A DNA stretch of 64,000 nt from an uncultured Poribacteria bacterium. GTDB lineage: Bacteria; Poribacteria; WGA-4E; WGA-3G. Positions 50,666 to 58,567 of the stretch are shown here, piece by piece; within the stretch, counting starts at the first letter, position 1, and each line of letters opens with the position of its first letter. The position numbers and the translations under genes are program-made. A model generated the notes under the pieces. That model was not told where the DNA came from. It searched no databases and saw nothing but the letters and a program-made list of their open reading frames with translations. Location: contig OX639992.1 in the NCBI GenBank assembly GCA_951828515.1, positions 992,001 through 1,056,000 on the forward strand, written 5' to 3'.

Positions 50666-51460
50666 CTATCTTCTTTTCTGAAGGTTTCGGCGCGTGAAAA
50701 TTTTATCGTCTATGTCGGAATCGAATGTAGCGTTCACCCATCGAACAACCGTTTTGTGCCCTTCCTTGTTTTGCGGGAGTATCTCCATCAGAGAAGGAAC
50801 GGTTTTGTCACCAAAGGTTTTAATTTCCTTGAAATTCATAACCCGCATCAGGCTCCCTTTTTCGTCATAGAACCGCTGCCACACCGGCGTATAATCGCTC
50901 GATTGTACGGCTGCAACAATCTTGCCCCAAACGATTGGAGAATCCTCTTTCGGCACGAGTTGAACGTAGAGATGGTCGGGAGATGCGTCTTCAGGTGTAA
51001 CAAGTTGGTAGGTATAATCATCGAGCATTGATGACTCCCTGACTAAGTCGTCATTCGTGAAATCGGAACCCATCCACGATCCCATCATCATTGATGGCGG
51101 AATCTTCATGACTTTGTTAGTTTTCGGCAGATAGTTCCACATCTCGTTCCCGATACGCAGTGTTGCGACCCCTTGTTCCTTCTTCGGTGCCGTAATCCGG
51201 ATGAAAGTTTTGTCCATTCCCTTGCTCCAAACCGTCATTGCCAAGGTGCGTTCCCAATGCGGCGTGACGATGTGCATCTCCATCTCGGCATGACTGGTGT
51301 CGCTACGATAGAGTTGATCGAGTTGTTTGATGATAGTTTCGACATCGGGAGCAGGTTCTTGGGCTGCTGCGAGAACGCAAAGGAGGAGCGTCGAGAGGAG
51401 AAAGGCGTATGTCATCAAGTTGCGTGTTGCTACCTGTATCCCATTTTGAGATTGTGCCAT
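50666..51460 (-). CDS. Outer-membrane lipoprotein-sorting (LolA-like) protein
   Basis: 264 residues. Signal peptide ending LAAAQE (about 15-36). The LolA/LolB-like beta-sandwich is suggested by EMEMHIVTPHWERTLAMTVW, KTFIRITAPKKEQGVATLRI, EMWNYLPKTNKVMKIPPSMM and PVWQRFYDEKGSLMRVM, which match the periplasmic outer-membrane lipoprotein-sorting family (PF17131). It probably carries a lipid or lipoprotein between the permease pair and the porin-like protein. First gene of the operon. Confidence 0.85.
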   Translation of the reverse strand: MAQSQNGIQVATRNLMTYAFLLSTLLLCVLAAAQEPAPDVETIIKQLDQLYRSDTSHAEMEMHIVTPHWERTLAMTVWSKGMDKTFIRITAPKKEQGVATLRIGNEMWNYLPKTNKVMKIPPSMMMGSWMGSDFTNDDLVRESSMLDDYTYQLVTPEDASPDHLYVQLVPKEDSPIVWGKIVAAVQSSDYTPVWQRFYDEKGSLMRVMNFKEIKTFGDKTVPSLMEILPQNKEGHKTVVRWVNATFDSDIDDKIFTRRNLQKRR

Positions 51461-51541
51461 TTTTCCGTTATCCTTTCTACTTTCACCTTATGTTTTTATT
51501 ATAGAACAAAACGTCTTAAAGCGCAACGTTTTTCAAATTTA

Positions 51542-51602
51542 CTGTGGGAAGGATTTCCGAATCCCGACCCCTCTTCTGTAGGAGGGAACTCCGATTCCCG
51601 AC
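51542..51602 (+). repeat. Tandem copies of the dispersed hairpin repeat
   Basis: A degenerate unit (51542-51568, ACTGTGGGAAGG...ATCCCGAC) is followed by a perfect unit (51575-51602). Confidence 0.7.
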
Positions 51603-51928
51603 TCTTCTTCCCCGTGATAAGGGGAGTTAGGTACGGAACTGGGAAACTGAAAGGGTGGGCAGCTGACGACTATTCCGTAGGAACAACCTCCTGGTCGTGA
51701 TACCTCACATAAAATCAACAGAATCGGGAACCATATGTCTCTCGCTTCCATTCAAGGCTGTTTAGTTCTTCGTTTTTTTACGCGTTTTTGATCCGCCAGC
51801 CCGGTAGGTGCGGTTTCCCAACCAGGGTTCCCACCCGTTACTGGGAAGGGACACCGGATCGCCCAAAAAAGGCGTGAAATCTGATAATTTCCTAAAACTA
51901 AATGCCTCCAACTTCTACTAAAATTCGG

Positions 51929-51958
51929 TTGACATCTGTTCACCTTGCATGGTATCAT
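51929..51958 (+). promoter_or_regulatory. Sigma-70 promoter of the TPR-recognition cassette
   Basis: TTGACA at 51929-51934, an 18-base spacer, TATCAT at 51953-51958. Transcription would start near 51965, about 30 bases before the ATG at 51995, which has GGAGGA. This rules out the upstream ATG at 51902. Confidence 0.78.
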
Positions 51959-51994
51959 TACCCCCAAGTAAATTGTATTGCGGAGGAACAGGTA

Positions 51995-54439
51995 ATGCTA
52001 GGATTGAACCAAACGCTTGCTAATCCTTTTTATAGTTATAGTTTTGCTTATGGAAACGAGGATAAAGAAGCCGAGGGATATAATAACAGCGGCATTGCTT
52101 ACATCAAAAGAAATGAACTTGAGCAAGCAATCGCATCCTTTAGCAAGGCAATGGAATTGGATCCAAGGTACGCTGATGCCTATTGTAATCGTGGTGTTGT
52201 TTACTACTTCAAAGGCGAGTATGAAAAAGCAATTATGGACTATAACGAGGCGATTGAATTGGATCCGCGCCATGTCGTTACCTACAACAACCGAGGGGTC
52301 GCTTACAGCAATGAAGGTGAACAAGAAAAGGCTATTGGAGATTTTACAAGAGCGATAGAGATTAAATCTGATTATGCTGATGCCTATAATAATCGCGGTA
52401 ATGCTTATGGCAATAAGGGCGAATATGACAGAGCAATTACAGATTATACGAAAGCAATAGAACTCAAAGTTAACTATGCTGAAGCTTATCACAACCGCGG
52501 TAACGCCTATGGTAATAAGTCCGAATATGAAAAAGCGATTGCAAACTATACGAAAGCAATAGAACTCAATACTAAGTTTGCTGATGCTTATCACAATCGC
52601 GCGGTAGCTTACTACAATAGAATGGATTTTGGCAGTGCTATCAAAAATTATACCAAAGCAATAGAACTCAAACCGGATGATGCTAGTGCCTATTATAACC
52701 GTAGCATTGTCTACACGGAAAAGGATAACTTTGATCTTGCTATCCAAGATTCTGCCAGAGCAATAGAACTAAATCCAAATTTTGCCGAAGCCTATCACAA
52801 TCGAGGTGTGGCATACGCGAAAAAGGGCAATTATGATTTTGCCATCAAAGACTATACGAAAGCAATTGAACTCAAACCTGAGTTTACCATCTATTACGAT
52901 CGTGGTCATGCCTATAACAATAAAGGCGATTATGACTGCGCCATCAAAGACTATACCAAAGCAGTAGAACTAAATCCAAATTTCGCCAGTGCCTATATCA
53001 ATCGCGGCAATATTTATAGCGATATAAGTGATTATGAGCGTGCCATTGAGGACTATACGAAAGCAATTAAACTAAACCTCAATCCCGCTGATGCCTACAA
53101 TAACCGTGGGGTAGTTTACGTCAAAAGAGATGACGTTACCCGTGCCTTGGAAGATTATACTAAGGCGATAGAACTAAATCCCAATCGCGATATACCCTAT
53201 TACAATCGCGGTGTGGTGTGGCTACACTTGCAGAAATGGGAGAAAGCTAAAACTGACCTGACCGCTGCTAAGAAAAAGGGTATGGATATCATCGCATCAT
53301 TCCGTGACGGTTACAAAAATGTTGAGGCTTATGAGAAACGATATCGCGTCAAGTTACCGGAAGACATCGCTCTCATGCTAACGCAACGCCGGCGGGATCG
53401 CTATCCGAAGTTACAAAAAGTGTTGGATGCCGATGGCAATCCTATTGAATCACCAAATGTGGTGAATTTACGCGCTCAGCTTCGCAATGCTGGCACGCCT
53501 TTAGGTGAGTACATCAAAACGAAACCGTCTTTCGGTATCAACACCGCACCAATCGAAGCGTTCATCGTAGACAAAGCGACGCGGGACAAACTCATTGCGG
53601 CGCATCCTTCATCCGCCGATATTTTGAAACCGTTTTTGCACGGGCAAGATCTAAGGCGTTGGCATGTTGACACGCCACTGCAGTGGCTTATCTTTGTCCA
53701 CCGCGGTATAGCGATAAATGACTATCCAGCAATCCTGAAGCACTTGGAAAAATACCGAGAATCTCTAAGCAAGCGAAAAGGCAAGCAGGAGTGGTATGAG
53801 CTGCCAGTATCTCTCAGAGATGCAGAGCGTTTTGCACAACCGAAACTGGTCTGCCCGGACACCTATAACCATCAGACTTTCGCTGTTGATACTGCCGGTT
53901 ATTATTACGGCAAAACCGCCTACCTTATCCCAACTGAGGAAACGTGGCTCTGTGGTCTCCTCAATTCCCGCACTGTGGAGTGGTTTTATTCGCAGGTGTC
54001 GAACCAATTGACGATTGATCCGCTTCGGGCACGTAGCGGTCATATACAACAGATTCCGATTCCCGACCTCACGTCAGCACAGAAGGCATTGATCGCCAAA
54101 CTCGTTGATTACCTAATCTATCTCCAGCAGCAGCCAACAACAGACAGCAAAGACTTAAAACATGCTCGTGATGCTATAATGCTCGGATATTTTGAACGGA
54201 TCATTGATGGCTTAATTTATGAGGCATATTTGCCTGAAGACCTGCACAAAGGAGATAAGCACTTCTTTCAACCGTTGCTGGAGGAACAATTGCCTTCATA
54301 TGCGGAAATTCAGGACGATAAAATGACCGTGTTACGAGACCTCTTTGAGCTACTATATGAAAGAACACATCTTGTTCGGCGCAACCTTTACTATCTGGAT
54401 AGTGTCAAAGTTGTCCGCATCATTCAGGATAGACTGTGA
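51995..54439 (+). CDS. TPR array fused to a type IIG restriction specificity domain
   Basis: 814 residues. Residues about 26-432 are twelve near-perfect 34-residue TPR units (AYNNRGNAYGNKGEYDRAI, then DYTKAIEL patterns). After a linker, about 480-700 match the TaqI_C/type IIG target-recognition region: AFIVDKATRDKLI, SADILKPFLHGQDLRRW, FAQPKLVCPD, then ETWLCGLLNSRTVEWFYSQV and HIQQIPIPDL. The last 110 residues have the FERIIDGLIYEAYLPE helical end of such enzymes. No methyltransferase motif (NPPY/F or FxGxG) and no nuclease motif is visible. The stop overlaps the next gene's GTG by four bases (GTGA). I infer a DNA-binding sensor built on TPRs. Confidence 0.8.
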   Translation: MLGLNQTLANPFYSYSFAYGNEDKEAEGYNNSGIAYIKRNELEQAIASFSKAMELDPRYADAYCNRGVVYYFKGEYEKAIMDYNEAIELDPRHVVTYNNRGVAYSNEGEQEKAIGDFTRAIEIKSDYADAYNNRGNAYGNKGEYDRAITDYTKAIELKVNYAEAYHNRGNAYGNKSEYEKAIANYTKAIELNTKFADAYHNRAVAYYNRMDFGSAIKNYTKAIELKPDDASAYYNRSIVYTEKDNFDLAIQDSARAIELNPNFAEAYHNRGVAYAKKGNYDFAIKDYTKAIELKPEFTIYYDRGHAYNNKGDYDCAIKDYTKAVELNPNFASAYINRGNIYSDISDYERAIEDYTKAIKLNLNPADAYNNRGVVYVKRDDVTRALEDYTKAIELNPNRDIPYYNRGVVWLHLQKWEKAKTDLTAAKKKGMDIIASFRDGYKNVEAYEKRYRVKLPEDIALMLTQRRRDRYPKLQKVLDADGNPIESPNVVNLRAQLRNAGTPLGEYIKTKPSFGINTAPIEAFIVDKATRDKLIAAHPSSADILKPFLHGQDLRRWHVDTPLQWLIFVHRGIAINDYPAILKHLEKYRESLSKRKGKQEWYELPVSLRDAERFAQPKLVCPDTYNHQTFAVDTAGYYYGKTAYLIPTEETWLCGLLNSRTVEWFYSQVSNQLTIDPLRARSGHIQQIPIPDLTSAQKALIAKLVDYLIYLQQQPTTDSKDLKHARDAIMLGYFERIIDGLIYEAYLPEDLHKGDKHFFQPLLEEQLPSYAEIQDDKMTVLRDLFELLYERTHLVRRNLYYLDSVKVVRIIQDRL

Positions 54440-55890
54440 AAATAACCGATATTGAAATCAAAAACTTCAGAGCTTTTCCGAAACTCTATCATATCAACTT
54501 ACATAATGCAGGGAAGAACTTATTAATCTACGGTGAAAATGGAAGCGGCAAATCATCGCTGTATCTCGCTTTAAAGTATTTTCTCGAATCCAACGTAAAT
54601 GAAGGCGAAAAGGAAAACAAAAACAGTGAGTTTGAAAACCATCAGAATATCTTTACCAAGGATCCTGGTTATGTCAAACTTCGTTTCCGTTCAGAGCAAC
54701 CACGAAAACAAAGGACCTACGAATGGCCAGAGAGCATTAAAGAGACGAATAACGATCTAATTGTTGAAATATCAAAGGCAAGTGGATTTCTTGACTATAA
54801 AGATCTTCTGGGGGTGCACTATCTCCAACCGGATGGCGAATCCGTGAATGTGTTCAATTTGTTGGTTGGGACGCTTTTAGCAGATACGATTAACCCAGTG
54901 ACAGATAGAACTCTTGCTGAGGCGTGGGATGACATTCAGGAACCCTATCCCCGCAGGAGCGCGAAACATCAAATTGCTTCCCTTAAACAACGCGTAGAAG
55001 TTTTTAACGATGAGTTAGTAAATAGATTAGCAGATCTGCGTCCAAAGGTGCGCGAGATTCTTGGCAAATTTAGATACAACGTTGACCTTAACTTAGATTT
55101 TAAAGGGGTTACATACGATCAAAAGAACAAAACTCTTGAGAACCAGCAGATTTTATTAAACGTCAAGTTCTTTGATAAAGATATTTCTGAACGTTATCTT
55201 TTACTGAACGAAGCGAAGTTGTCAGCAATTGCTATTGCCATCTATCTTTCATCAATCCTACTTCTACCAGACCCAAAAAGCGGACTAAGAATTCTTGCTC
55301 TGGATGATATCTTAATCGGTTTGGATATGTCAAACCGCCTGCCGGTACTTGATATTCTTCTGGACAAGGAGTATTTCTTAAACTACCAAATCTTTTTGAC
55401 AACTTACGATAAGGCATGGTACGAGATTGTCAAACAACGCACATCCCATATTGGAAAGTGGAAATCTGTTGAATTCTATTTCTCGGAAACCGATGAGTAC
55501 GAAATGCCGGTATACAAGGAAGATGCGCCATACTTGAAAAAAGCAAAAGAATATTTTGATGCCAGCGACTATAAAGCCTGTGCAGTCTATCTTCGGACCG
55601 CTTTTGAAGCAATAATCAAGAGATTTTGTGATAAAAGGAATCTCCGGGTCAGGTACTGTGAAAATCCCAAGCAGTTGACGAGTAAAGATTTCTGGGATCC
55701 TATAAAAACTGGAATCAGAAGGAATGGTACTTCTTTTTTACAAGCGACACTCATTAGGGAAATTGAATTGTATCGTAGTATTATCCTAAATCCCCTCAAC
55801 CACGCCGCCATCGCAAATATCCCCAGAAGAGAAATTGAGGAAGCTATTAATGCGGTAGAGGAGCTTGAAACTGCATTAGCAAAGGCTTAA
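54436..55890 (+). CDS. RecF/SMC-like ATPase with helical C-terminal domain
   Basis: 484 residues, GTG start overlapping the TPR gene stop. MKITDIEIKNFRAFPKLY and Walker A YGENGSGKSS (about 32-41) mark the RecF/SMC class. A signature-like LLLNEAKLSAIAIAIYLSS (about 256-274) and Walker B LRILALDDILIGLD (about 287-300) complete the head; there is almost no coiled coil between them. Residues about 370-484 form a separate helical domain (YLKKAKEYFDASDYKACAVY, FEAIIKRFCDKRN, REIEEAINAVEEL), possibly HEPN-related, but without a clear Rx4-6H motif. Tight coupling implies it acts with the TPR-recognition protein. Confidence 0.85.
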   Translation: MKITDIEIKNFRAFPKLYHINLHNAGKNLLIYGENGSGKSSLYLALKYFLESNVNEGEKENKNSEFENHQNIFTKDPGYVKLRFRSEQPRKQRTYEWPESIKETNNDLIVEISKASGFLDYKDLLGVHYLQPDGESVNVFNLLVGTLLADTINPVTDRTLAEAWDDIQEPYPRRSAKHQIASLKQRVEVFNDELVNRLADLRPKVREILGKFRYNVDLNLDFKGVTYDQKNKTLENQQILLNVKFFDKDISERYLLLNEAKLSAIAIAIYLSSILLLPDPKSGLRILALDDILIGLDMSNRLPVLDILLDKEYFLNYQIFLTTYDKAWYEIVKQRTSHIGKWKSVEFYFSETDEYEMPVYKEDAPYLKKAKEYFDASDYKACAVYLRTAFEAIIKRFCDKRNLRVRYCENPKQLTSKDFWDPIKTGIRRNGTSFLQATLIREIELYRSIILNPLNHAAIANIPRREIEEAINAVEELETALAKA

Positions 55891-55930
55891 ACTATTGAAA
55901 AGATACAGATTATAGAGAAAAAAGAGAAAA

Positions 55931-56338
55931 ATGACAAAAGAACTCAATCAAGAGTGTGCCGAGACATATTACAATCGCGGGTTGGCTCATAGCAAAAAGG
56001 GCGCAGTTGAACTTGCTATTGAAGACTTTAACAAAGCGATAGCACTGAATCCAAATTTTGCCGAGGCGCATTACCAACGAGGTATTGCCTATCGCATAAA
56101 AGGCGATTATAAACTTGCCATCACAGACTATACCAAAGCGATAGAAATTGAACCCAATAATGCTGATGCCTATTACAGACGTAGCAGGGCTTGGTTACAC
56201 CTCGGAGAAGAGGAAAAAGCAAAATCTGATATGACAATCGCCAGCAGTATCGGGATAAACAGTAAAACAGCCTTAGACGAGATACTACGCGACTACGATC
56301 GCGCATGGAAAACCCTCGGCAACATTTCAGACATTTGA
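55931..56338 (+). CDS. Small TPR protein
   Basis: 135 residues with three TPR units (AETYYNRGLAHSKKGAVELA, AEAHYQRGIAYRIKGDYKLA, ADAYYRRSRAWLHLGEEEKA) and a short helical tail. ATG 40 bases after the ATPase stop, with AGAGAA upstream. The units resemble those of the 814-residue protein, including its last WLHL..WEKAK unit, so duplication is likely. It may compete with or bridge the larger TPR protein. Confidence 0.75.
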   Translation: MTKELNQECAETYYNRGLAHSKKGAVELAIEDFNKAIALNPNFAEAHYQRGIAYRIKGDYKLAITDYTKAIEIEPNNADAYYRRSRAWLHLGEEEKAKSDMTIASSIGINSKTALDEILRDYDRAWKTLGNISDI

Positions 56339-56818
56339 CAATTGAAGATATTTCTGCATCACCAAGGATCCCGCTGCTGATTATCAATAGTGGAACTGAC
56401 TCCAAATCTATCCTTCCAAACCCCTCTATGATTATTTAGTTTTTCACTTTCTAAACCGTTTTGGTTGGAGAGTCGCGACCCGGAGGTCGTTCCTACAGAA
56501 GAACTAAGTGACCCTAAAATTATCAATATTGACTTGACAAAATTTTATGTAAAATGATAAACTGACTTCAAACACGGGAAACCCGGAATTTATCCCCTTA
56601 GTTCTTAAAGTTCAGTAACTCTACGCTAAAGCGTGGAGATTGTAGAATATCCGCAGCTAAGCGGGGACCCTGCAACGTGAGACGCTGAATAGAGTAATAT
56701 ATCGTAAATCTTGTGGTGGCACACAACAAGATGTTTCGGATGCTCCCCAAGTCTGATTCCTCTCTGATTTGCGATCTCGATGGGGCAACACACACCCTGT
56801 AAAGGAGAATACAAACTT
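56339..56818. other. Intergenic region with inverted repeat block and omega-RNA-like leader
   Basis: An inverted copy of repeat block 2 (GTCGCGACCCGGAGGTCG, about 56473-56490) is followed by a TTGACA at 56534-56539 with a poor -10 (GATAAA) and then by the structured leader described separately. Confidence 0.5.
56580..56815 (+). ncRNA. Omega-RNA-like structured leader of the IscB relic
   Basis: The 240 bases before the IscB-like start form repeated hairpins: CTCTACGC-TAAA-GCGTGGAG (about 56619-56638), CCGC-AGCTAA-GCGG (about 56651-56664), TTGTGGTGGCACACAACAAG (about 56709-56728) and GATGCTCCCC paired with GATGGGGC. Guide RNAs of IscB elements are encoded directly upstream of the protein and have this type of leader. 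Boundaries and function are inferred; the protein is broken, so the RNA may be a fossil or act in trans. Confidence 0.55.
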
Positions 56819-57327
56819 ATGTTTGTGCCTGTAGAAACGAAAGATGGTCAACGGTTGATGCCAATGCATGCTGCACGCGCAAGGAAACTTGTCGAGCGTG
56901 GAGAGGCAACACCTTATTTTAACAATGGTATATTTTGTATTAGACTCAACAAAGAACCTTCAGATAGAGAAACCCAAGATATTGCTGTTGGTGTGGATCC
57001 TGGTAGTAAGAAGGAAGGTTTTACGGTAAAGTCGGAGAAACATACCTATTTGAATGTGCAGGCGGATGCTCACGATAAAGAAGGAACTTACACAGAGAAG
57101 TTGCCAAGAAAGGTGGTAAACGTCCACGATATGGCGGAACAAGATGTCTGGGTCGGACGAAAGGGACATTGGTTAGAAGTGTCCGGTGGGGATTATGTTG
57201 GATTAGTGGTCATCAAAAGGGTAAGATTAATCTTACACAGATGGAAACTGGTAAACAGAGACCTACACAAAAACCTGAGACTTTTCATTTACTGAAACGA
57301 CTCAATTTTAGGTACAAATCCGCCTAA
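56819..57327 (+). pseudogene. IscB-family RNA-guided nuclease, internally deleted
   Basis: N-terminal 90 residues read MFVPVETKDGQRLMPMHAAR, RKLVERGEATPYF, FCIRLN and AVGVDPGSKKEGFTVKS: the PLMP domain and first RuvC segment of IscB/IsrB proteins. After about 57070 the frame changes. In the new frame, residues ending at the stop at 57327 read KGGKRPRYGGTRC, KGTLVRSVRWGLCWISG and KGKINLTQMETGKQR, like the family's C-terminal target-interaction end. The bridge helix, RuvC-II/III and HNH parts are missing. Not a working nuclease. Confidence 0.7.
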
Positions 57328-57386
57328 ACAATCTCAAGTAGAACACAACAATATTACTTTACAATTAACATTACAATTCTAAAGAA

Positions 57387-57434
57387 GCAGAGGAAACCAC
57401 ATCTCCAAGCTAAAACATGGAGTTTTGCCTCTGC
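57387..57434 (+). other. Hairpin at the right end of the IscB-like element
   Basis: GCAGAGGAAAC (57387-57397) pairs with GTTTTGCCTCTGC (57422-57434), with an inner CTCCA/TGGAG stem. It lies 27 bases before the start of the isomerase-like gene, so the element sits in that gene's control region. Confidence 0.6.
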
Positions 57435-57460
57435 AGAGAATGATAAAGAAAGGAAGCAAT

Positions 57461-58567
57461 ATGGCATCACAAAGTGAACTAAAGTCAATGCTAAACGCAC
57501 CTGTCGCCTTAGCACCGAACACCTACCTGCATTTCTACAATGGTGGGAAACTCCGTGCTGAGTTTATGGGTGAACCCGATCCGAAAGATGATTATTACTC
57601 CGAAGAATGGATCTTCTCGACAAACCGGGCAATCACCCCCGGCAGAGAAAATCCACCCGACAAAGGACTCAGTCGTATCCAACTTCCCAGTGGTGAGGTC
57701 GTCCTCTTGAAAGCACTGCTGGACGCATTTCCAGAAGATACACTCGGTAGCGCACACATCGACAAATACGGTACTGAATTAGGTGTACTTCTCAAAATTT
57801 TTGATGTCGGCGAAGGCGCGCATATCCCTATCCATTGGCATCCAAACCCCGATTTCTCGCAAAAACACCTCAATTCACCCTTCGGCAAGAATGAAGCGTG
57901 GATCCTCATCGGTACACGTCCGGGCGCGAAGGCATGGATAGGGTGGAAAGAAGCAATAGACAAGGCAGAATTCCGTCGCCTGATGGAAGCACAAGATGTG
58001 CCGACACTACGCAGCCTTATGCACGTTGTTGAACCGAAGGTTGGCGAAGTCTATTTTTTACGCACCCCGATTGTCCATTCACTCGGTACAGGACTCTGTG
58101 TGCTCGAACCACAAGAACCTACCGACTGGAATATCCTCGCGGAATGGGAAGGTTTTCCGTTTGAAAGAGATGATGGTCACCTCGGACTCGGATGGGATCT
58201 CGCTGTAGATGCCGCTGAGTTTGATAAATTGGAGCTGGACTATCTTAACAACTACATCCGACGCACGCCAGAACTCGTCCGGGCGGAAGGCGATAACCGA
58301 GAAGATCGAATCGTGCCAGAGGAAGCCTCGAAATTCTTTGGATGCTCACGTCTAACAGTGGATTCTACGCTGAGTATGCCAGCAGACAAGGGGTTTTATG
58401 CGCTCGTGACTCTGGGCGGCGAAGGTGTACTGCGTGGGGATTTTGAAGATGTTCCGCTCAAACGCGGCAAATCTGTCTTTATCCCGCGATGCTTGTCCAG
58501 TTACGTCATCGTTAGCACTGGCGATACACCCATGGAGATCATCTGTTGTTATCCCCCGAGTCTTTAA
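57461..58567 (+). CDS. Phosphomannose-isomerase-like cupin (type I)
   Basis: 368 residues from the ATG at 57461 behind AAAGGAAG; the longer frame from 57425 runs through the IscB-element hairpin. Metal-site features of ManA: HIPIHWHPNPDF (paired His), FGKNEAWILIGTRPGA (Glu) and RTPIVHSLGTGLCVLEPQ (His). The C-terminal cupin (GKSVFIPRCLSSYVI) is complete. Expected reaction: mannose-6-phosphate/fructose-6-phosphate or related sugar isomerisation with Zn. Confidence 0.85.
   Translation: MASQSELKSMLNAPVALAPNTYLHFYNGGKLRAEFMGEPDPKDDYYSEEWIFSTNRAITPGRENPPDKGLSRIQLPSGEVVLLKALLDAFPEDTLGSAHIDKYGTELGVLLKIFDVGEGAHIPIHWHPNPDFSQKHLNSPFGKNEAWILIGTRPGAKAWIGWKEAIDKAEFRRLMEAQDVPTLRSLMHVVEPKVGEVYFLRTPIVHSLGTGLCVLEPQEPTDWNILAEWEGFPFERDDGHLGLGWDLAVDAAEFDKLELDYLNNYIRRTPELVRAEGDNREDRIVPEEASKFFGCSRLTVDSTLSMPADKGFYALVTLGGEGVLRGDFEDVPLKRGKSVFIPRCLSSYVIVSTGDTPMEIICCYPPSL

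Follow-up and report, generated by a model that had tools for sequence, protein, structure and literature searches.

We report here a gene pair of Candidatus Poribacteria in which an array of tetratricopeptide repeats (TPRs) is fused to a methylase-free target recognition domain (TRD) of the type IIG restriction-enzyme kind, and which is completed by an overlapping gene for an ATPase with a RecF/SMC-type head. The two genes, P1 and P2, lie in a stretch of 64,000 nucleotides (hereafter the window; G000:C1:992001-1056000, G, C, and L numbers denoting our genomes, contigs, and loci), which is part of a 5.85-Mb single-contig genome of these sponge symbionts. We consider it probable that P1 and P2 form the conserved two-gene core of a modular Poribacteria defence system, in which the TRD and the ATPase would sense and the TPR array would relay the signal to effectors; DNA sensing, effector activity, and an anti-phage role of the core are what we infer from comparison of related loci. 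The features of the pair, in window coordinates, are as follows.

51921..51987, + strand: conserved promoter and leader block, with TTGACA at 51929-51934, an 18-nt spacer, TATCAT at 51953-51958, and GGAGG at ~51982.
51995..54439, + strand: P1, 814 aa, consisting of a short leader, 12 TPRs, the TRD, and a tail (Pfam and family comparison).
52082..53390, + strand: TPR array of P1 with its C-terminal cap, ...LPEDIALMLT (Pfam TPR_1, 12 stretches).
53618..54433, + strand: part of P1 probably derived from a type IIG enzyme, a TaqI_C/BseCI-type TRD with C-terminal tail (Pfam TaqI_C at 53627-54061).
54436..55890, + strand: P2, 484 aa, RecF/SMC-head ATPase (Pfam, alignment, and structure model).
54532-54558, + strand: Walker A of P2, GENGSGKSS (sequence).
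55303-55308, + strand: Walker B of P2, DD290-291 (sequence).
~55528-55887, + strand: C-terminal helical domain of P2 (weak DUF4145 likeness).

The longest open reading frame (ORF) of P1 spans 51902-54439; its true start is most likely the ATG at 51995, giving 814 aa, because the conserved promoter and leader occupy 51902-51994. Pfam identifies 12 TPR_1 units (2.7e-110) followed by TaqI_C (3.7e-15), in agreement with a first-pass annotation that was made from the sequence of the window alone and had described a 12-unit TPR array joined to a TaqI_C-like recognition region free of methylase motifs. The latter part of that description also holds: the motif scan of P1 found neither [NDS]PP[YFW] nor a motif-I methylase signature, the Pfam search returned no methyltransferase and no nuclease, and for nucleases the motif scan yielded weak regular-expression matches only. 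A profile of the TRD matches the C-terminal region of the M.BseCI DNA methyltransferase (8.7e-17). FRG-TPR proteins without a TRD close with the same cap as this TPR array, and neither P1 nor its adjoining genes contain TIR, FRG, or HNH; P1 of the window is thus an effector-less member of the TPR-TRD family.

P2 starts at a GTG (54436) inside the stop region of P1 (GTGA), a 4-nt overlap, and its head is matched by AAA_23, AAA_15, and SMC_N in Pfam, so that the GTGA-coupled ATPase with a RecF-like head and a C-terminal helical domain is borne out as annotated. Walker A, an invariant NEA.L.A segment, the DD of Walker B, and N452/H456 near the C terminus are conserved, and the relatives from Nostoc, Prevotella, and Thiospirochaeta described below share them. 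The structure model (predicted local distance difference test, pLDDT, 77) finds its best matches among the cohesin SMC1A, Rad50, and SMC heads (E to 1e-11, template-modelling score ~0.4-0.6). PADLOC and NCBIfam models cover mainly the N-terminal head, and DUF4145 matches weakly in 2 of 39 members of the ATPase family.

The pair is widespread in the phylum. Close relatives of the TRD (E below 1e-60) occur in ~40 of 85 Poribacteria genomes and ATPase matches in 44 of the 85. We compared 49 TRD copies, picked by similarity to the window TRD and including both copies of the window genome. All 49 are TPR-fused or fragments of TPR-fused genes, and [NDS]PP[YFW] is present in none of them, as against NPPY in 11 of 11 neighbouring type IIG enzymes tested; most of the remoter TRD matches (25-40% identity) belong to open frames of ~1000-1300 aa, i.e., of type IIG size. 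The first-pass annotation had stated that a one-off chimera would undo its reading; the methylase-free form is instead the rule in the phylum, and a one-off chimera or an assembly artefact is ruled out by the 49 copies, which come from independent assemblies with single-contig genomes among them. The second refuting condition given there, that the ATPase and the TPR gene never occur together elsewhere, fails as well: in all 39 loci with an intact adjoining ATPase the two genes overlap, by 4 nt (n=28) or 7 nt (n=11), and the remaining 10 of the 49 are cut at contig ends or have the ATPase broken or missing. The ratio of nonsynonymous to synonymous substitution rates (dN/dS) between related copies is 0.08-0.19 for the TRD and for the ATPase, indicating purifying selection on both genes. 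The sensor TRDs fall into few clades (~75-80% identity within and ~55% between them), a pattern as expected if there are a few fixed specificities. A second pair of the window genome, at 4.80 Mb (L007, hereafter PARA), encodes an FRG-TPR-TRD protein of 1658 aa overlapping an ATPase and sits behind a full type IIG enzyme. As a separate observation, L115 7969-10317 (G014) is one ORF that joins a shortened TRD directly to the C-terminal part of the ATPase, by natural fusion or by deletion.

The N-terminal module of the 49 TRD proteins varies: TIR in 23, FRG in 5, HNH in 3, and none in 18, the last including the window copy, one fragment, and one copy with a masked start. For the TIR of L043 the match is to ThsB (1.7e-19), and for the FRG of PARA it is to the PADLOC candidate PDC-S15. 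The TIR motif NCNKELA retains a conserved Glu, which we take to be the catalytic Glu of TIR NADases, and the FRG motifs (RGE, QHFGGKTNLIDFT) are retained as well. FRG has been assigned to the ADP-ribosyltransferase superfamily and proposed to be an NADase (PMC9503650). On the TRD tree the module label requires at least 16 changes, with 3 as the minimum possible and 21 as the mean for shuffled labels, and copies with a given module are spread over different TRD clades.

Upstream of P1, TTGACA-18-TATCAT at 51929-51958 is sigma-70-like and the strongest promoter-like site of the region; the strong promoter noticed in the first pass is conserved as part of a 66-nt block, found with 75-92% identity upstream of TIR, FRG, and module-less copies. 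Since copies with TIR, FRG, or no module have this block in common, the modules seem to have been swapped while the promoter in front of them and the core behind them (TRD and ATPase) stayed constant; a constant core with interchangeable effectors is what characterizes modular defence built of effector, sensor, and ATPase. The block occurs three times in the window genome: at the window cassette, at the FRG-TPR-TRD pair, and at 943.6 kb (L009 5705-9080; G000:C1:943704-947080), where a TPR protein ending in UPF0175 is followed by a DUF3368 gene, an antitoxin/toxin-like pair. A TPR-UPF0175 gene and a DUF3368 gene recur in L127 2944-6410 (G057), at the same chromosomal site as the window cassette. 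With UPF0175 the TPR hub has a C-terminal partner of another kind, and this partner, too, seems exchangeable.

Six of the 18 module-less TRD genes (L097, L100, L103, L107, L109, and L110) follow a separate FRG-TPR or TIR-TPR gene, and from these separate effector genes ahead of TPR-only TRD genes we consider that effectors may also act in trans. In L069 and L070 the form without an effector is found again, with a leader similar to that of P1 (M..LN...YSY.FAYG). We also note that the window genome has seven FRG-domain loci, and that most of these fall in frames of 390-1660 aa; this enlarged FRG repertoire provides candidates for effectors in trans.

For relatives outside the phylum we sampled plasmids, phages, viral contigs, and one genome-contig scan. 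The scan, run with the ATPase, gave matches in Candidatus Poribacteria only; on the viral contigs the TRD profile found nothing and the ATPase profile led to relatives in which a type IIG enzyme adjoins the ATPase; the phage records searched contained no ATPase relative. The viral-collection contig L121 encodes a full Eco57I-type enzyme (Eco57I 6e-34, plus TaqI_C) whose gene has a GTGA overlap with that of an ATPase, 44% identical to P2, and the C terminus of this enzyme is collinear with P1 residues 542-813 to the last residues (29% identity, 7e-34). A Prevotella record has a full enzyme and a more distant ATPase. On a Nostoc conjugative plasmid, a TRD-only gene of 338 aa, whose TRD is 33% identical to the C terminus of the L121 enzyme, overlaps an ATPase 46% identical to P2, and a distant TRD-like gene overlaps an ATPase on a Thiospirochaeta plasmid (L064 4742-7338), the extra 135-aa N-terminal domain of that ATPase having no Pfam match. 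The TRD and tail of P1 are thus homologous to and collinear with those of type IIG (Eco57I-like) enzymes, with the same ATPase family at an overlapping start in L121; the cassette differs in lacking methylase motifs and in its N-terminal half, a TPR array to which TIR, FRG, or HNH may be added. We read this, at the level of sequence, as derivation of the TRD and tail from a type IIG enzyme that naturally adjoins this ATPase family, the methylase half having apparently been replaced by the TPR array. The simplest reading of the order is type IIG enzyme and ATPase, then TRD and ATPase, then effector-TPR-TRD and ATPase, a direction that is itself deduced. Distant ATPase matches on Rhizobium, Roseibium, and Sphingomonas plasmids (three inspected) were set aside as different, longer ATPases with no annotated TRD neighbour.

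Other features of these relatives deserve mention. The row in L121 (4-8621) and L120, both from the viral collection, consists of a helicase C-terminal part, the full Eco57I enzyme, the GTGA-coupled ATPase, and a 418-aa gene that matches nothing in Pfam or PADLOC, and such a row of a type IIG enzyme with an SMC-type ATPase is undescribed. In Prevotella (L065 7874-8746), a 290-aa gene, HNH-like by eye, directly follows the pair of type IIG enzyme and ATPase.

The window cassette occupies a site bounded by two flanking genes, and the interval holds further features.

50666..51460, - strand: LolA-like flanking gene, left border of the hotspot (Pfam and flank comparison).
55931..56338, + strand: P3, 135 aa, with 3 TPRs and a tail ..RDYDRAWKTLGN (Pfam; hotspot comparison).
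56611..57438, + strand: stretch private to the window genome, holding a truncated IscB-type ORF at 56780-57295 (RRXRR 2e-16).
57425..58567, + strand: cupin flanking gene, right border of the hotspot (Pfam and flank comparison).

Among the 38 genomes of the genus, 36 have the LolA-like flank and 36 the cupin flank; in G048, G060, G074, and G083 the flanks are not both on one stretch, owing to contig ends or rearrangement. The cargo between them is the TPR-TRD gene and ATPase in the window genome and G084, a type IIG enzyme with TIR-TPR-TRD and ATPase in G076, a type IIG enzyme with TPR-TRD and ATPase in G080, a type IIG enzyme with TPR-UPF0175, DUF3368, and P3 in G057, TIR-TPR in G082, and type IIG and ATPase remnants in G069. 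In six genomes (G062, G067, G068, G081, G063, and G066) only ~1.2-1.7 kb separate the flanks, with P3-like TPR sequence and, in some of them, the promoter block. The interval is thus a hotspot with exchanged, defence-like cargo. The three-gene cassette of the first-pass annotation stands only in part: P3 is a real second TPR gene, with relatives in L069, L071, and L072, but because P3-like sequence remains where the cassette is absent, P3 is taken as a near-constant resident of the hotspot and the core pair as variable cargo, and a three-gene unit is ruled out. The repeats reported on the left were not found in 51460-51995. The decayed IscB element reported on the right is real as a truncated ORF; the ~828-bp stretch around it is absent at the same site in the compared relatives and is no part of the cassette, and Rfam gave nothing credible, with no RNA family in 56611-57438.

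How the core might work can be put as follows, and we give about an even chance to this: the methylase-free TRD would be the DNA-sequence trigger of an abortive-infection receptor that, with the ATPase, turns on interchangeable effectors, NADases (TIR, FRG) or nucleases (HNH), by way of the TPR hub, in cis or, for the window copy, in trans. On incoming DNA the TRD would recognise a fixed sequence or the modification state of that sequence; the SMC/RecF-type ATPase, which probably docks on the tail of the TRD and works as a dimer, would license the bound state; the TPR array would assemble the complex and pass the signal to the effector, which would deplete nicotinamide adenine dinucleotide (NAD) or cut DNA and thereby stop the infected cell. 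The idea of a repurposed DNA-recognition sensor, plausibly anti-phage, that had been put forward in the first pass is well supported, in an indirect way, by the TIR, FRG, and HNH fusions, the module swapping, and the hotspot with its type IIG and toxin-antitoxin-like cargo; the function we infer from this context. Please note that several points weigh against a sensing core with relayed effectors. The ATPase follows the TRD only partly (TRD and ATPase identities are correlated with Mantel r 0.47, 0 of 2000 permutations being as high); the TRD model is of low confidence (pLDDT 61) and does not allow a firm fold assignment; the TPR arrays of these genomes have UPF0175 as another fusion partner and so may be generic; and the window copy lacks both a recognisable effector of its own and an effector gene beside it.

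Because it has no effector in cis, the window copy would either recruit, in trans, a TPR-bearing effector encoded by a separate gene, a possibility suggested by the gene order in the six relatives, or be disarmed. We judge it unlikely that the effector was lost from this copy and that what remains is inert, or acts as a regulator or decoy towards other copies, for instance the FRG-TPR-TRD pair at 4.8 Mb. The absence of effector modules, the full FRG copy with a type IIG neighbour in the same genome, the promoter block in common with module-bearing copies, and the remnants at the same site in G069 would all agree with such a loss; however, both window ORFs are intact with the low dN/dS given above, the effector-less form of L069 and L070 speaks for a stable form, and TPR-only TRDs adjoin separate effector-TPR genes elsewhere. 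That the TRD is not a DNA reader and instead serves as bait for phage anti-restriction proteins (Ocr-like) we regard as improbable: the top fold matches of the TRD model are PglX structures, including Ocr-bound PglX, and the TRD clades are conserved rather than hypervariable, but the PglX match is weak (E 0.03-0.06) and the partner ATPase, being of the SMC/Rad50 type, suggests that the ligand is DNA.

A full-length type IIG gene adjoins the pair in 11 of the 49 loci, just upstream, and is fragmentary or cut in a few more; in L007, L093, and L095 effector, sensor, and type IIG enzyme form one gene row. This raises the explanation that the sensor reports on its neighbour, its TRD reading the same site and detecting unmodified DNA. 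The neighbouring enzymes, however, swap their TRDs (TRD identity 17-93%, methylase halves 60-97%), and the sensor TRDs do not keep step with them: between PARA and L093 the sensor TRDs are 85% and the type IIG TRDs 21% identical, and between PARA and L074 58% and 86%, respectively. The sensor therefore does not simply read its neighbour's site, and most copies, the window copy included, have no type IIG neighbour; matched specificity is thus disfavoured, and we hold this explanation to be still less probable than the bait. The least probable, with a very small chance, is that the pair has no part in defence and instead organises DNA in an SMC-like way or is related to transcription, TPRs having spread as promiscuous domains; this would suit the UPF0175 fusions behind the same promoter and the resemblance of the ATPase to chromosome-handling ATPases; the patchy presence, the hotspot, the TIR/FRG/HNH swapping, and the type IIG neighbours are, on the contrary, marks of conflict systems.

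Among known systems, the DNA-scanning DndD-DndE (and CxC ABC ATPase) dyads of the Dnd/Pbe kind come closest in the logic of the sensor; in these dyads a DNA-recognition protein is paired with an SMC-type ABC ATPase and effectors are recruited (PMC10853773). The logic is the same, but the putative reader of the cassette is a restriction-enzyme TRD (TaqI_C), not the ribbon-helix-helix DndE, and only the ATPase head, to which the matches of the DndD models are confined, is in common. Lamassu, the closest precedent for an ATPase with interchangeable effectors, consists of the LmuA effector and the LmuB SMC-like ATPase. The likeness lies in an SMC-type ATPase with interchangeable effectors; in contrast, LmuB matches the head of P2 only (3.4e-9, residues 1-96), P2 has no long coiled coil, the effectors are fused to TPR-TRD, and no LmuA model is among the listed matches of P1-P3. 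For Septu (PtuA-PtuB), the PtuA match covers only residues 1-104 of P2 (1.6e-9), and the downstream gene encodes a TPR protein, not HNH. Thoeris shares the N-terminal TIR, which in most relatives resembles ThsB; however, no ThsA-type partner was seen alongside, the partner being the ATPase, and the TIR, absent from P1-P3, is one of several exchangeable modules and is fused to TPR-TRD in the relatives. In BREX, target-site binding by PglX is required for defence (PMC11842806), which makes PglX the nearest precedent for such binding by a methylase as a defence step; PglX has the weak fold match to the TRD region mentioned above, but it retains its methylase, and we saw no other BREX gene in the cassette.

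We found no description of the combination seen in the cassette in PADLOC or in PubMed Central full text, a library with few subscription papers and preprints, and in two eLife surveys of NTP-dependent conflict systems a text search returned neither Poribacteria nor TaqI. If our reading is true, the system joins sequence-specific DNA recognition of restriction enzymes with NAD-depleting immune receptors of the TIR kind, usually separate worlds, possibly as a sequence-triggered cell-death switch, and it outlines a route from restriction enzyme to immune receptor with living examples of type IIG enzyme and ATPase, TRD and ATPase, and effector-TPR-TRD and ATPase. It also offers a testable two-gene system and a mapped hotspot for defence-gene discovery in uncultured sponge symbionts.

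Elsewhere in the window genome, L008 2882-17242 (G000:C1:5.53-5.55 Mb) contains a row of a PLD-SNF2 helicase (PADLOC HKD+Snf2), a type IIG enzyme, an FRG-TPR gene, a TIR protein, and a second FRG-TPR gene, which looks like a separate defence island of this genome.

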